From NCBI RefSeq assembly GCF_001590905.1, contig NZ_BCTT01000008.1:124001-188000 (forward strand): a stretch of DNA of 64,000 nucleotides, given 5' to 3'. The notes beneath the pieces were generated by a model. It ran no database searches and had not been told where the DNA came from. It saw nothing but the letters and a program-made list of their open reading frames with translations. Shown in pieces: positions 1 through 46,809 of the stretch. The stretch is from Serratia grimesii NBRC 13537. Its GTDB lineage: Bacteria > Pseudomonadota > Gammaproteobacteria > Enterobacterales > Enterobacteriaceae. The position numbers and the translations under genes are program-made. Position 1 is the stretch's first letter. Each line of letters starts with the position of its first letter.

Positions 1-270
1 TCTGTGTAGCCAGTGATAGCTACTGCAATCTTCCGCACTTTTGGTCAAAAGAACTTACCTTATTGAAATTACATAAATTTAACATCAAAAGATCGTTTTA
101 TAACCTGTTTTTATTCCTTTTAGTTATAAAAAATGAGTGACTCCATAATAAAGTTTCACTAGAAACTGTTAGCTAACTATTAATTTTTAGCGTTACTAGA
201 TGTATACTCATTTCCGTGACGTAAATCACAGTTCACTGGAACTGATAAAAGAATACGATGAGGTCAAACC
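1..270. other. AT-rich left-edge intergenic region
   Basis: No coding frame that I can support lies here. The sequence is AT-rich with several A and T tracts and ends in a promoter-like region directly before the first DUF1471 gene. The gene to the left is outside the window, so I cannot tell whether part of this serves a divergent gene. Confidence 0.6.
203..230 (+). promoter_or_regulatory. Putative promoter -10 with CRP-like palindrome
   Basis: TATACT at 203-208, preceded by TG, resembles an extended -10. It is followed at 215-230 by CGTGA-N6-TCACA, which fits the CRP half-site pattern TGTGA-N6-TCACA except for its first base. The palindrome lies downstream of that -10, so if both are real CRP would act at or after the start site, or another promoter is used. 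Seen by eye only. Confidence 0.4.
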
Positions 271-534
271 ATGAAAATTAAAGCTACCATTGCAACCATG
301 AGCGTTCTGTCCATGCTTTCTTTCGGCGCATTTGCAGCACAATCTGTTGATGCAAGCCAAGCAGAAAAAATGCAGGCTGCAGGCACAATTACCGTTAGCG
401 GCGTAGCCGGTGCACCTTCCGACATCCGTCAGGCACTGTCTGAGAAAGCCGATGCCAAAGGGGCAACCGCTTACCGTGTAATTGAAGCGCGTAACGAAGG
501 CAACTTCCACGCTACCGCAGAAATTTATAAATAA
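271..534 (+). CDS. DUF1471 (YhcN/BhsA-type) periplasmic protein
   Basis: An 87-residue secreted protein. Residues 1-22 form a signal peptide (Lys-rich start, hydrophobic core, cut near AFA-AQ). The mature part carries the DUF1471 core: a TITVSG strand, a helix with the ADAKGATAYRVIEA pattern and a final strand ending in ATAEIYK. Family members such as BhsA, McbA and YhcN respond to stress and affect biofilm or surface properties in E. coli; the molecular function is unknown. The next gene is a clear paralogue with the same C-terminus, so this is a tandem duplication. An AGGT-type ribosome site sits a few bases before the ATG. Confidence 0.85.
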   Translation: MKIKATIATMSVLSMLSFGAFAAQSVDASQAEKMQAAGTITVSGVAGAPSDIRQALSEKADAKGATAYRVIEARNEGNFHATAEIYK

Positions 535-25960: not shown

Positions 25961-27595
25961 CTAGCCCCCCATCGCTCGGGTAAACAACGTTTCGCATAAC
26001 CGGTCTGGCAATGCCCTTTCACCACGGGCATCTAGCATCATTTGACACCAGGCCTCTGCCAGCGGGGGAGAGCTGTGACGCAGAAGCTGCGCCGCGGCGA
26101 ACAGATTGAATAACGCACCGGTGACCGCGCGCCCTTGTTCTTCCTGAGGTTTACGCATCAGTTGGAGCAGCCGTCGCCACTGATGATCAAAGTGGCGATT
26201 CTGTCCCCTGACCTCAACAAATTCGAGTTCCAGGGCCTCCTGCACCACCGGCAGCTTTCCCCAGGCACGCATCACGTCCAGACACATGATATTGCCTGAC
26301 CCTTCCCAAATGCTGTTTACCGGCATTTCACGGTACAGTCGCGGCAGCTCACTCTCTTCGCAGTAACCGATTCCACCTAACGCTTCCATCGCTTCACCGA
26401 CAAAAGGGATGCCTTGTCGGCAGACTTCAAACTTAGCAGCCGGGGTCATCACACGGCACAGTGCCTGCTCCAAAGGCGCACCGGTGCCAACGCTGTCGTA
26501 GGCACGCGCTAACCGCATCAGAGCCGCTGTCTGCCCTTCTAACCGCAATGCCATCCGCGCTAACACCTGGCGCATCATCGGTTGTTCGATCAGTGGTTTA
26601 CCAAACGCCTGTCGCTGCAAGGCATGATATAGCGCTACCGATAAGCCACGCCGCATCAAACCATGGCTACCCAATGCACAGTCAAATCGCGTCAGGCCAC
26701 CCATTTTTAGGATATGCCGCACACCATCCCCTTCCTCACCCACCAGCCAGGCGGCGGCGTCCTGGAATTCAACTTCACTGCTAGCATTTGAACGGTTGCC
26801 GAGTTTGTCTTTTAGACGTTCCAGCCGTATTGCGTTGCGTGTACCGTCAGGCAGAATACGCGGAAGAAAGAAACAAGATAGCCCACCGTCGGCCTGCGCC
26901 AGCACCAGATGCGCATCACTCTGTGGCACCGAGAAGAACCATTTGTGCCCTACCAGCCTGTAAGCTTCTCCCGGGCCACGTGCAGCCAAAGGCGTAGCTG
27001 TGGTCGTATTACTTAACACATCGGAACCACCTTGTTTCTCGGTCATCCCCATGCCAATTAGCAATCCGCGTTTTTGCCCGCCGGGTAACAAATGTGCATC
27101 GTAACGATCAGACAGCAGCGGCGTCAGCCAAGTCTGGAATTCAGCAGGCAATGAACGTTGCAGTAATGGAATTGCACCAAAAGTCATGGTCACTGGGCAC
27201 AAGGTGCCAGCTTCAACCTGGGCGTGCAGCACAAAACGCGCGGCGCGCGCCACGAACGAACCAATACGCGCATCCTCCTGCCACGGCAGGTTATGCACAC
27301 GGTTGGCGATCAACCCTTGCATCAGAATATGCCAGGCAGGGTGGAAGCGGACATCATCCAGCCGCTGACCGGTGGCGTCATAGCGCAGCAGTTCCGGCGG
27401 ATTGACGTTGGCCAACCGCCCCAGCTCCAGCGATTCCTGAGTACCCAACTGCTGCCCCAACGAAGCCAGCACCTCCGCATCCCAACCGGCTTGCTCGCGC
27501 TGTATGGCTTCATGCAACGGCGTGTCGGACAGGAATAGATTGCTGTTACCCAGCGGCTTCGGCTGATTAAAAACGGTGTGTGTATTCCAGACCAT
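25961..27595 (-). CDS. aidB: AidB, acyl-CoA dehydrogenase family DNA-repair flavoprotein
   Basis: A 544-residue FAD protein of the acyl-CoA dehydrogenase family (E. coli AidB 541). Visible motifs: GMGMTEKQGGSDV in the flavin/substrate region, KWFFSVPQSDAH, and YREMPVNSIWEGSGN near the C-terminus. In E. coli AidB is part of the adaptive response to alkylation, has weak isovaleryl-CoA dehydrogenase activity, and binds DNA through a basic C-terminal domain. A 365-base upstream interval to rlmB shows no Ada box that I can identify. Confidence 0.95.
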   Translation of the reverse strand: MVWNTHTVFNQPKPLGNSNLFLSDTPLHEAIQREQAGWDAEVLASLGQQLGTQESLELGRLANVNPPELLRYDATGQRLDDVRFHPAWHILMQGLIANRVHNLPWQEDARIGSFVARAARFVLHAQVEAGTLCPVTMTFGAIPLLQRSLPAEFQTWLTPLLSDRYDAHLLPGGQKRGLLIGMGMTEKQGGSDVLSNTTTATPLAARGPGEAYRLVGHKWFFSVPQSDAHLVLAQADGGLSCFFLPRILPDGTRNAIRLERLKDKLGNRSNASSEVEFQDAAAWLVGEEGDGVRHILKMGGLTRFDCALGSHGLMRRGLSVALYHALQRQAFGKPLIEQPMMRQVLARMALRLEGQTAALMRLARAYDSVGTGAPLEQALCRVMTPAAKFEVCRQGIPFVGEAMEALGGIGYCEESELPRLYREMPVNSIWEGSGNIMCLDVMRAWGKLPVVQEALELEFVEVRGQNRHFDHQWRRLLQLMRKPQEEQGRAVTGALFNLFAAAQLLRHSSPPLAEAWCQMMLDARGERALPDRLCETLFTRAMGG

Positions 27596-42765: not shown

Positions 42766-44277
42766 TTATGCCAACTCAGGATTAACGTAATAAGGAATTT
42801 CCGGCATTAAATCGCTCGCCAACATTCCCCTTATTCCTTGTCTTGCCGCCACACGATCGGCGGCTGCGCCATGCACCACACACCCGGCACAGGCTGCATC
42901 ATACAGCGAGAGCTTTTGCCCCACCAAACCGCCGATTATGCCTGACAGTACATCGCCCATACCACCGGAGGCCATACCAGCATTACCGACGTCAGCTATC
43001 GCCATCTGGCCCTGGTCGTCTGCGATCAGCGTACCCGCGCCTTTCAACACGGCAACGCCGCCGTAACGTGCCACCAGATTGCGTACTGCAAGTAAGCGGT
43101 CACTCTCAATATCAGCGGTACGGCACCCTAGTAGGCGGGCGGCCTCCCCAGGATGCGGGGTAATTACACGATTCTGACGCTTCTCGGGATTTAATGCCAG
43201 TAAGTTCAGCGCATCCGCGTCCCATAACGCCGGTTTATCACTGGCTTGCAATACTTTCAGCGCATTCCTAGCCCATTCCCCCTGGCCCAGCCCTGGCCCC
43301 ACGACCAGCACATCTGCCCAGTCGAGCGCCTGTTGCAGCGCATCGTCATTCAACGGTTGTACCATCAGTTCTGGTCTGGCGGTCAGTAAGGGGCCAACAT
43401 GCTCTATGTGAGTAAGCACTCGCACCAGTCCCGCACCGCTGCGTAAAGCCGCTTCTGCCGCCATACGTATTGCACCGCCAAAACCATGATCGCCTCCTAC
43501 CACCAACAGGCGCCCCTGTTCACCTTTATGCGAGCAAGGACGGCGTGGTTTTAACCACTGAGGCAACGATTGAGCAGTAAGCCGCTGAATCTGAGCCGGT
43601 TGCTTCACCAGCCAACCAGATAATCCTAGCGTACTCTGGTGAAGTTGCCCGACCCAATCACGTGCCTGGCCTGTCAACAAACCAGGTTTGAGGGCGATAA
43701 AAGTAATCGTGTGCATCGCGCGGATGACCGCACCGGGAGCGGCACCGCTTTCGGCCAATAGGCCTGAAGGAACATCGAGTGCGATCACGGGCGCAAGACT
43801 GCGATTCGCGGCTTCAATCAGAGCGTCGTACGGCGCCCGCGGCGCACTGCTTAATCCGGTACCTAGCAAACCATCGATAATCAAATCAATGCCTTCTGGC
43901 CAACGGGTGTTGGCCGGATGAATTTCACCACCGCTGGCCAGCCAAGCTTGCCTGGCTGCATCGGCTTCTGGCGGTAATGGACGTGTACCTTCACAGGCGA
44001 TCAAGCTCACCTTAACGCCAGTTGCCGCCGCCAGCCGAGCGACAACATAGCCGTCGCCACCATTGTTGCCATGGCCACACAACACCAACCAATGGTGGCC
44101 AGCCGGAAATTGGTCGCGCGCCAGGGCGTAAGCCGCCTCACCAGCGCGCTGCATCAGTTGATAGAGCGAGATACCCAGCGAAGCAGCGGCGCTCGCTTCC
44201 GAACGCCGGATCCAGTCCGCAGACCAGACAGAGTGTGATAAACTGTCAGAGTACTGTTTTTCACTGTGGCCCGTCAT
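42766..44277 (-). CDS. nnr: Bifunctional NAD(P)HX epimerase/dehydratase
   Basis: A 503-residue repair enzyme that restores damaged NAD(P)H hydrates. The N-terminal YjeF epimerase domain has [16 protein letters not shown]; the C-terminal ribokinase-like dehydratase domain has [14 protein letters not shown] and [15 protein letters not shown]. The E. coli protein has 515 residues. Its ATG shares the bases CATG with the divergent queG start codon, so the two start codons overlap by two bases. Confidence 0.96.
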
Positions 44278-45415
44278 GACTCACCCCCTCGATCTCAATC
44301 AACTCGCCCAACATATCAAGCAATGGGGTCAATCGCTAGGATTCCAGCAGGTCGGCATCTGCGACACCGATCTCAGTGCGGAAGAACCCAAACTGCAGGC
44401 ATGGTTGGACAAACAATATCACGGTGAGATGGAGTGGATGGCGCGCCATGGCATGTTACGTGCCCGCCCTCATGAGCTACTACCGGGGACATTGCGAGTG
44501 ATCAGCGTACGCATGAATTACCTGCCAGCCAAAGCGGCCTTTGCCAGCACACTCCAAAACCCTAATCTGGGCTACATCAGCCGCTATGCGCTGGGCCGTG
44601 ACTACCACAAACTACTGCGCCAACGGCTCAAAAAGCTCGGCGATCAGATCCAAGCCTATTGCGGGGAGCTTAATTTTCGCCCGTTTGTCGATTCCGCACC
44701 GGTGATGGAACGTGCACTGGCCTCCAAGGCCGGGATTGGCTGGGTTGGTAAACACTCACTTATTTTGAATCGTGAGGCTGGCTCCTGGTTTTTTCTCGGC
44801 GAACTGCTTATCGATTTGCCGTTACCGGTGGATGAACCACAGCAGGAGCAATGTGGCCGTTGTGTTGCCTGCATCACCACCTGCCCAACGGGGGCCATCG
44901 TCGCCCCTTATACTGTGGATGCCCGGCGCTGCATCTCCTACCTGACCATCGAGCTGGAAGGGGCTATTCCAGAAGAATTCCGCCCATTATTGGGCAACCG
45001 CATTTACGGTTGTGACGACTGCCAGCTGATTTGCCCGTGGAACCGCTTCTCACAGCTCACCGACGAAGATGATTTCAGCCCACGCGCCGCCCTGCATGCG
45101 CCACAACTCATAGACCTGTTTGGTTGGACCGAAGAAAAATTCCTACGCATCACCGAAGGTTCTGCCATCAGGCGAATCGGCCATTTGCGCTGGCTGCGTA
45201 ATATCGCCGTCGCACTGGGCAATGCCCCTTATCAGGATGCCGTGGTGATGGCACTGCGTTCCCGCTTAGAACAGAACGCCATGCTGGACGAACATATCCA
45301 TTGGGCTATTGAACAGCAATGGATACGGCGTGAGGCGCAAGGTGTAGAAGTGCAGACAATGCAGAAAAAACGATTGGTACGCGCTGTGGAAAAAGGATTA
45401 CCGAGGGATGCCTAA
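44276..45415 (+). CDS. queG: Epoxyqueuosine reductase
   Basis: A 379-residue cobalamin-dependent enzyme doing the last step of queuosine synthesis on tRNA. Two [4Fe-4S] motifs are visible: CGRCVACITTCP near residue 192 and CDDCQLICPWN near 244, the second closing the first-cluster ligand set. The DUF1730 domain is N-terminal and a HEAT-like helix region is C-terminal. E. coli QueG has 379 residues. It is divergent from nnr with overlapping start codons. Confidence 0.96.
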   Translation: MTHPLDLNQLAQHIKQWGQSLGFQQVGICDTDLSAEEPKLQAWLDKQYHGEMEWMARHGMLRARPHELLPGTLRVISVRMNYLPAKAAFASTLQNPNLGYISRYALGRDYHKLLRQRLKKLGDQIQAYCGELNFRPFVDSAPVMERALASKAGIGWVGKHSLILNREAGSWFFLGELLIDLPLPVDEPQQEQCGRCVACITTCPTGAIVAPYTVDARRCISYLTIELEGAIPEEFRPLLGNRIYGCDDCQLICPWNRFSQLTDEDDFSPRAALHAPQLIDLFGWTEEKFLRITEGSAIRRIGHLRWLRNIAVALGNAPYQDAVVMALRSRLEQNAMLDEHIHWAIEQQWIRREAQGVEVQTMQKKRLVRAVEKGLPRDA

Positions 45416-45634
45416 ACGCTTTCATCCTGACCCGAGAGTCACTCTGTGGATTTGTGCATAAAAATAAAAATGCTTTGTCTTTCAACTGCAACAAAAAGAG
45501 CAAGTGATCGGCATAACGTTTTCCGATAAATAAATATACTTACAAATCAATGTAATAAATATTTCATTTGTGTGGCGTTGATTTTTTGAGCTGACGGTAT
45601 TATGTACGCTACCTGTGGATAAGTCTGTTCACAA
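45385..45634. promoter_or_regulatory. datA-like cluster of DnaA boxes with an IHF-like site
   Basis: Perfect DnaA boxes (TTATNCACA on the minus strand) lie at 45453-45461 and 45614-45622. Weaker matches are at 45385-45393 (8/9, inside the queG end), 45445-45453 (7/9) and 45625-45633 (7/9, plus strand). Between the perfect boxes, 45545-45557 reads AATCAATGTAATA, one mismatch from the IHF core WATCAA-N4-TTR, in AT-rich DNA. The queG-glyV interval is where E. coli keeps datA, which promotes DnaA-ATP hydrolysis. The 298-base gap holds no gene. Confidence 0.65.
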
Positions 45635-45713
45635 CATTTCGACAGGATATGTATAACGGGGCAAGGAACCGCGCCGGTAAAGGCGTTGGACTGAGATAAA
45701 TCGAAGATAAAAT

Positions 45714-45789
<76 letters not shown>

Positions 45790-45843
45790 ATTGAGATGCT
45801 TTGGGCATCCGGCCATCAAACAAAACATGGCCTTTGAATTTTT

Positions 45844-45919
<76 letters not shown>

Positions 45920-45983
45920 GTCGCATGGGTACTACTTGATACTATTTTTATTCATCACGCCACAAAAGCAGCATTGTTGAATT

Positions 45984-46059
<76 letters not shown>

Positions 46060-46112
46060 CCGGCGTATCGATGTCGGAACTAAACGAAATTCTTCATCGG
46101 TACGGGGTGCGC

Positions 46113-46140
46113 ATTATACGAGAAATCCTTTTTGCCGCAA
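46113..46140 (-). promoter_or_regulatory. Promoter of the tRNA-Gly array
   Basis: On the minus strand TTGCGG, a 16-base spacer, then a perfect TATAAT followed by the GC-rich discriminator GCGCACCCC. Such discriminators mark stringently controlled stable-RNA promoters. About 55 bases lie between the -10 and the first tRNA. Confidence 0.8.
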
Positions 46141-46263
46141 GCCCCTGAAAGCAAAAAAACACGATTTTTGTTTGATTGCTGATTAAAACGGCAAACTGAT
46201 TAATTAAGCGGCGGATTAAAGCGCTTTTGGTAATACGGCCCCTGTCGAGGGGGCCCACATCCA

Positions 46264-46809
46264 TTACAACTGGATGAAATGCTCACGGTAATAGGCCAAC
46301 TCACCCACCGATTCACGGATGTCATCCATCGCCTGATGAGTCCCCTGCTTTTTAAAACCGCTCAGGATTTCCGGCTTCCAACGACGCGCCAACTCTTTCA
46401 GCGTGCTGACATCCAGATAGCGGTAATGGAAGTAAGCCTCCAGCTCTGGCATATAACGGAACAGGAAGCGACGGTCCTGGCCAACACTGTTGCCACAAAT
46501 CGGTGATTTGCCCGCAGGCACCCACTGCTGCAAAAAGGCAATGGTAGCCAGCTCAGCGGCATGGTCGTCGAACTGGCTGGCCTTCACACGCTCTACCAGT
46601 CCGCTGCCGGTATGAGTGCGCACGTTCCAGTCATCCATCAGCCCTAGCTGTTCATCAGATTGATGTACGGCGATTACCGGCCCTTCTGCAAGGATGTTCA
46701 GATTGGCGTCAGTGACCAATGTAGCGATCTCGATAATGCGATCGCGCTCAGGATCCAACCCAGTCATTTCCAGATCGATCCAAATCAGGTTATTTTCGTT
46801 TCCTGTCAT
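46264..46809 (-). CDS. orn: Oligoribonuclease
   Basis: A 181-residue DEDDh exonuclease that finishes RNA decay by degrading 2-5-mers and pGpG. D12 and E14 (WIDLEMTG) begin the active site, which ends with the [11 protein letters not shown] segment. I start at 46809, with AGGA upstream and the E. coli length (181), rather than 45 bases further upstream. It is transcribed opposite to rsgA. Confidence 0.97.

Follow-up and report, generated by a model that had tools for sequence, protein, structure and literature searches.

A probable datA locus between queG and the tRNA-Gly genes of Serratia grimesii

Features of the interval between queG and the tRNA-Gly genes

We focused our attention on a 64,000-nucleotide stretch of the genome of Serratia grimesii NBRC 13537 (hereafter, the window), and specifically on the interval between queG and three tRNA-Gly genes, which contains the probable datA site (Table 1). 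Over its best segment, the encoded QueG protein shares 97% identity with S. quinivorans QueG. The order orn, three tRNA-Gly, datA and queG is identical in the window and in E. coli MG1655 (orn-glyV-glyX-glyY-datA-queG). The original prediction had placed the site in the same queG-glyV interval as E. coli datA, and the gene order confirms it: datA of E. coli K-12, which contributes to inactivating the replication initiator DnaA following each replication round, is a DDAH element in the glyVXY-queG interval, with its box 2 at position 4,392,744 of MG1655, and the window shares that gene interval.

Table 1. Coordinates of genes and sequence elements around the queG-tRNA-Gly interval; positions are those of the window.
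Feature	Coordinates	Strand	Remarks
queG, tRNA epoxyqueuosine(34) reductase	44276..45415	+	TIGR00276, 513.9 bits (cut-off 200)
8/9 box TTTTCCACA	45385..45393	-	inside the queG reading frame
7/9 DnaA box AAATCCACA	45445..45453	-	+8 bp from box 3 start, same direction; place of E. coli inverted box 4
DnaA box 3 TTATGCACA	45453..45461	-	perfect; +161 bp from box 2 start, same direction
AT tract ATTTTTATTT	45462..45471	-	fused to box 3; conserved
TTGAnnnnCAA (TTGAAAGACAA)	45475..45485	-	conserved, 31/45 rows of alignment A1
Conserved block GTTATGCCGATCACTTG (GTTAnnnnGATCRCTTG)	45501..45517	-	+105 bp from box 2 start; one GATC (Dam) site
IHF-binding-type site AATCAATGTAATA	45545..45557	+	one mismatch from WATCAANNNNTTR; +65 bp from box 2 start
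DnaA box 2 TTATCCACA	45614..45622	-	perfect box; 15-bp context ACAGACTTATCCACA
Low-affinity DnaA box 7 TTGTGAACA	45626..45634	-	7/9; 12 bp upstream of box 2 start
8/9 box TTATACATA	45648..45656	-	34 bp upstream of box 2, i.e., away from where box 1 is found in E. coli (67 bp upstream)
Three tRNA-Gly(GCC) genes	45714..46059	-	counterpart of E. coli glyV-X-Y; transcription runs towards datA
orn, oligoribonuclease	46264..46806	-	NF003765, 305.1 bits (cut-off 106)

Two perfect DnaA boxes with an IHF-like site between them had been predicted, and all three were found at the expected positions. A further 8/9 and two 7/9 matches had been counted in the cluster; these are present as well, but the 8/9 match is within queG, and a few additional 7/9 matches exist. 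Likewise, positions 45385-45634 had been described as AT-rich, gene-free DNA. The composition agrees, with a GC content of 0.38 across the 298 bases from queG to the first tRNA gene (45416-45713) as compared to 0.53 for the whole window, but as queG ends at 45415, the first 31 bases of that stretch, 8/9 box included, are coding. This box, which scores 9/9 under the consensus TTWTNCACA, was consequently rejected as part of the datA element, and probably lies outside it. The 7/9 box next to box 3 also occurs in loci L001 and L002. Two more perfect TTATNCACA boxes are found in the window, at 27291 and 40532 (plus strand), each solitary and distant from datA.

Box arrangement in related bacteria and in E. 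coli

To what extent such a cluster could arise by chance was judged from the genome of S. grimesii itself and from related loci. In the 5,072,299 bases of the genome, TTATNCACA occurs 112 times, compared to 66 for a reversed control pattern. At that density, 0.03 same-direction pairs of perfect boxes with a gap of 140-165 would be expected, and exactly one was found, which is the datA locus; the reversed control pattern gave no same-direction pair at that gap in the same genome. Among the 100 of the 112 places listed, two perfect boxes within 250 bp occur at three spots: oriC (contig C14), the datA locus, and upstream of nrdD. The last of these (L109:971-1035, contig C8 at about 53.5 kb, outside the window) carries two opposed perfect DnaA boxes together with an 8/9 box. 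It directly precedes an nrdD-type gene for anaerobic ribonucleotide reductase, of which the stretch covers the first part, and from its sequence it is possibly a DnaA-regulated nrdD promoter.

For the comparison with other bacteria, 80 queG loci were kept of 596 candidates: 43 from Enterobacterales, 19 from Vibrionaceae and 18 from others. In the 43 Enterobacterales loci, perfect boxes reach 5.95 per kb in the first 420 bases 3' of queG, a density well above the 0.04 per kb found both in queG and upstream of it. Of the 18 loci outside Enterobacterales and Vibrionaceae (Shewanella, Alteromonas, Pseudoalteromonas, Pseudidiomarina, Psychromonas, Oceanimonas and others), not one has a perfect box in the first 1 kb 3' of queG; for one of these loci, the sequence examined was 377 bases long.

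The 43 Enterobacterales loci, none dropped, were aligned with the window and MG1655 (alignment A1, 45 rows; all counts are by row, ignoring kinship). Box 2 followed by a same-direction box scoring at least 8/9 was present in 43/43 loci, with a box 2-box 3 distance of 159-165 bp across the 45 rows, and of exactly 161 in 29 of them. The sequence ACAGASTTATCCACA around box 2 is invariant (S apart) in all 45 rows, and the invariant columns of the alignment cover ACAGA.TTATCCACA as well as two positions in the IHF core and another four at the box 3 end. An IHF-type site scoring at least 7/9 was found at +60..69 in 42/45 rows (at least 8/9 in 36/45; 10-bp bins), while the eleven other bins reached those scores in 1-14 and 0-2 of 45 rows, respectively. 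Boxes and IHF-type site are therefore both conserved among relatives, even if the perfect YAANNNNTTGATW match is restricted to 18/45 rows and three loci (L029, L032 and L035) score below 7/9 for the IHF-type site.

Conservation is concentrated in the elements themselves. Three groups were hand-picked from the rows with a spacing of 161: six rows (window, L003, L005, L006, L007 and L011), 12 Enterobacteriaceae and four Pantoea. Between the first two, identity was complete (1.00) at box 2 and reached 0.87 at box 3, 0.83 for the AT tract and 0.81 at box 7. The block (103-121) scored 0.74 and the IHF core 0.63, as compared to 0.28-0.29 for upstream and spacer DNA. It could still be argued that AT-rich spacer DNA merely accumulated DnaA boxes by chance, as partial matches rise in AT-rich intergenic DNA and 7/9 matches are common. 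Nevertheless, one pair against 0.03 expected, and an arrangement kept in 43/43 loci whose flanks are near chance identity, leave this explanation with next to no probability, and it is refuted by the conservation.

The window and E. coli datA have in common boxes 7, 2 and 3 and their directions, the spacing (162 in E. coli, 161 in the window), a single IHF-type site at +65, the AT tract before box 3, and GATCACTTG; in MG1655, box 7 reads TTGTAAACA, box 2 TTATCCACA, the IHF site TAACCTATTGATA and box 3 TTATTCACA. The IHF core of the window has one mismatch to the consensus. The two loci differ in that E. coli box 4, an inverted TCATCCACA at +12, is replaced in the window by the direct AAATCCACA at +8, and in that the window lacks both E. 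coli box 1 at -67 and a recognizable tRNA attenuator. The predicted difference in box order is thus correct for boxes 1 and 4, but the essential set of box 7, box 2, IHF site and box 3 is identical. According to the text available for these sources, E. coli requires the IHF site together with boxes 2, 3 and 7 (PMC10950094, PMC5742627, PMC5835720), with box 7 being needed for DDAH in particular (PMC10950094; PMC5835720). Box 4 has a stimulatory effect in vitro but is not essential in vivo (PMC5742627), and DDAH can proceed without box 1 (PMC10950094).

Loci of Yersinia, Pantoea, Xenorhabdus, Photorhabdus, Morganella, Proteus and the remaining Enterobacteriaceae have box 1, counted as a match of at least 8/9 at -65 to -68. 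This box is absent from those of Serratia, Rahnella, Rouxiella, Pectobacterium, Brenneria, Sodalis, Limnobaculum, Pragia and Edwardsiella, and likewise from L011, Kluyvera L019 and Leclercia L043. The possibility that yjeV coding accounts for the conserved AT tract was rejected, since the column of the E. coli yjeV start codon (ATG) reads AAG in the window. No terminator-like site was found in 45300-46300 of the window, and folding of the sequence that follows the last tRNA did not exceed that of shuffled sequences (z -0.17, vs -2.29 in MG1655). Unlike MG1655, the minus strand of 45640-45713 shows no recognizable terminator or attenuator after the last tRNA-Gly gene, and read-through into datA may be stronger.

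The context of box 2 also connects datA with oriC. MG1655 oriC contains ctgacagagttatccacag, presumably box R4, and thereby the ACAGASTTATCCACA 15-mer found without variation at box 2 of datA. As 264 of 394 genomes of the order carry this 15-mer, and no listed genome carries its reversed control, box 7-box 2 of datA looks like an oriC-type module. In S. grimesii, the 15-mer occurs once, at datA, and the corresponding box of its own oriC reads ttagttatccacaatc. E. coli oriC has an unwinding element and more boxes, unlike datA. DARS1 and DARS2 are, similarly to datA, non-coding DnaA-box clusters that regulate DnaA, and DARS2 likewise uses IHF; however, the DARS cores, which reactivate DnaA, have boxes I and II in opposite orientation, as stated in the available part of PMC8682772, whereas all essential boxes of the locus in the window point in one direction. 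DnaA-box clusters of Bacillus subtilis and Streptomyces coelicolor are called datA analogues and repress untimely initiation, according to the accessible text of PMC5742627 and PMC10950094.

Distribution in the order and a related cluster in Vibrionaceae

A sequence-only model built from A1 (R1) scores the window, itself among its 45 rows, at E = 9.1e-31. Searching 394 genomes of the order, 34 of which belong to the same family as the window, R1 recovered 30 of these 34 at E <= 6.4e-14; the remaining four are genomes of 0.8-1.2 Mb. In a larger sample of the family, 166/246 genomes matched at E <= 1e-3, four of them more weakly than 1e-6. Among the 20 listed of the 80 misses, 18 genomes have at most 1.4 Mb, one has 2.0 Mb and one (G415, family f1) has 4.9 Mb. 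G415 is the only genome above 2 Mb among those 20, and possibly reflects either loss of the site or an assembly gap.

Outside the family, R1 matched 98 genomes weakly (E from 8e-7 to 1e-3), and these matches were not counted as datA. One of these other families (f5) includes G004, a genome of 2.5 Mb in which boxes 7, 2 and 3 are found at -12, 0 and +161 beside queG (L103, 796-2262); no tRNA gene is present in that 5-kb stretch, and no IHF-type site was detected by a relaxed pattern. The element can thus persist without the tRNA operon. The weak match of G202 (L104) was rejected as datA, as its stretch has neither queG nor box 3, and that of G361 (L105) corresponds to a Vibrionaceae-type cluster adjoining queG. 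A second R1 match of G324 (L106) has neither the 15-mer nor queG.

Distances between oriC and datA were determined where both sites are on one contig, without wrap-around; 14 genomes were searched, five more of which would need a rounded genome size. The distance is 373 kb in G324, the only genome of the same genus measured, 407, 475, 474, 415, 469, 444 and 678 kb in seven other genomes, and 467 kb in MG1655. The S. grimesii assembly itself is in 40 contigs, with oriC on C14 and datA on C8.

In Vibrionaceae, a family with two chromosomes, another DnaA-box/IHF cluster adjoins queG in 19/19 loci (L041-L074; e.g., L058:3663-3964, minus strand). It is composed of the ACAGASTTATCCACA 15-mer, an inverted box at +18/+19, an IHF-type site, an inverted TTAANCACA-type box and, at +273..281, a box of the TTTTCCACA type in forward orientation. 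The IHF-type site falls at +120..129, scoring at least 7/9 in 19/19 loci and at least 8/9 in 14/19, while 23 other bins reached those scores in 1-12 and 0-2 of the 19 loci, respectively. A model of these clusters (R2) matched 147/150 genomes sampled from the family of G361, which we infer to be Vibrionaceae, 145 of them at E <= 1.9e-12. The best 30 of the 147 matched genomes all have a locus adjoining queG with the 15-mer, the inverted and the forward box, and 25 of these 30 loci contain an IHF-type site by the relaxed pattern. Among 295 genomes of the order, R2 matched 22 at E <= 4e-22, all from the family of G361, and six others at 7.6e-9 or weaker.

The Vibrionaceae cluster departs from the datA layout, as it has no box 3 about 161 bp after box 2 and its boxes are of mixed direction; for this reason, we term it datA-like rather than datA. 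From its sequence, it may work like datA, and is a candidate rearranged datA. In the available part of PMC3937223, V. cholerae is compared with E. coli datA. Searches of the open literature listed no work dealing with datA of Serratia or Vibrionaceae, and no report of datA outside E. coli appeared among the listed titles and beginnings of abstracts; earlier E. coli datA papers may contain enteric alignments. The cross-genome datA study PMC4585315 covers, in the text available, E. coli strains only.

Proposed function and the conserved block

The original prediction of a probable datA agrees with the position, the box identity, orientation and spacing, and the IHF-type site, all of which match the layout of E. 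coli datA. The minimal E. coli set (box 7, box 2, one IHF-type site and box 3) is present in the same directions and with a spacing within 1 bp. Judging from these sequence features, the interval 45445-45634 is very probably the datA locus of S. grimesii NBRC 13537, and since every part essential in E. coli is present, the same mechanism is the best explanation; we infer that DnaA-ATP would be hydrolyzed at this locus with the aid of IHF.

In the accessible portions of the E. coli work, the bending of datA by IHF allows DnaA molecules on box 2 and box 3 to come together, and the ATP bound to DnaA is hydrolyzed (PMC10950094, PMC5742627, PMC5835720), the release of IHF needs glyVXY read-through plus a further factor (PMC10950094), and YgfZ reduces datA-IHF binding (PMC13036160). 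By analogy, in S. grimesii, IHF would bind after initiation and bend the DNA between boxes 2 and 3, and ATP-DnaA would assemble head to tail on boxes 7, 2 and 3 across the bend. Hydrolysis of ATP would then yield ADP-DnaA, unable to re-initiate at oriC, and tRNA-Gly operon transcripts reading through into datA would contribute to clearing IHF ahead of the following initiation. As the locus has no E. coli-type box 1 and no recognizable tRNA attenuator, basal read-through may be higher in S. grimesii.

Two other functions have to be weighed against this one. The boxes could hold DnaA passively, with IHF taking no active part: titration was the role initially ascribed to datA, the available text of PMC5835720 continues to accept direct titration by the datA boxes, and the box density at the locus is high. 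However, titration alone needs no near-fixed spacing of 161 bp, no fixed directions and no IHF-type site at a single offset, and since all three are conserved, we consider passive titration very improbable as the sole function. The boxes could also act primarily as a DnaA roadblock, or attenuator, for the tRNA-Gly operon, with replication control being secondary. In E. coli, box 2 and the tRNA terminator reduce read-through (as given in the accessible part of PMC10950094), and in 45300-46300 of the window, where no terminator-like site was found and the tRNA-end fold does not surpass shuffled sequences, it could be mainly the boxes that stop transcription. A roadblock would, however, have no need of box 3 or of an IHF site as far as 160 bp beyond, and in L103 boxes 7, 2 and 3 persist beside queG with no tRNA gene in the stretch; such a role as the primary one is, therefore, likewise very improbable. 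Regulated DnaA-ATP hydrolysis thus remains the preferred function of the locus.

Besides boxes and IHF-type site, alignment A1 contains a conserved block between the IHF-type site and box 3. GATCRCTTG is present in 28/45 rows and the full GTTANNNNGATCRCTTG in 23/45, while MG1655 retains only GATCACTTG. The block is absent from the Pantoea and Xenorhabdus rows, and its identity between either group and the four Pantoea rows (0.38 and 0.44) is no better than that of the AT-rich flank of the IHF site, while the boxes hold. Together with the 17/45 rows missing GATCRCTTG, this argues against the block being a general part of datA. In the S. grimesii genome, GTTANNNNGATCRCTTG occurs at three places, the other two being inside open frames (ackA at L111, and a frame without family match at L110), and in a sample of 60 genomes of the family, many of the 60 being reduced, it occurs in 23, as compared to 3/60 for the reversed control.

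The examined portions of the datA literature give no role for the block. Judged from sequence, it may be a site for a further factor, a low-affinity DnaA region or a Dam-sensitive element; it also appears to resemble the oriC 13-mer (GATCTnTTnTTTT). We tentatively propose, as a possibility still rather unlikely to hold, that minimal datA has a fourth protein site, in which the block would either bind a protein distinct from both DnaA and IHF, or be read through Dam methylation, to time the binding and release of IHF, with the same logic applying to a rearranged datA of Vibrionaceae. A cAMP-CRP-like protein is a weak candidate binder. When a CRP 22-mer was compared with the 45 rows, the best match fell at the block in 24/45, and the mean best score was 13.49, as compared to 12.25 (sd 0.33) for 1000 permuted palindromes, four of which reached 13.49. 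Against CRP, the best match is elsewhere in both the window and MG1655, and the left half of the block keeps GTTA where CRP needs a G. Moreover, a literature search for datA together with CRP listed a single paper, on an antisense RNA of Salmonella.

Altogether, these comparisons suggest that the datA site is old and widely retained among related bacteria. The parts kept are boxes 7 and 2, the IHF site, the block, and the AT tract with box 3, at a nearly fixed spacing, and the parts dropped in some lineages are box 1, box 4, the tRNA attenuator and the yjeV start. This distinguishes the datA mechanism from features peculiar to E. coli, and draws attention to one element within minimal datA, the block, which, if the proposal above is true, would be the site of the further factor called for by Kasho et al. 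2024. Moreover, the cluster adjoining queG, for which the literature search found no paper, suggests that a related control site lies beside queG across Vibrionaceae.
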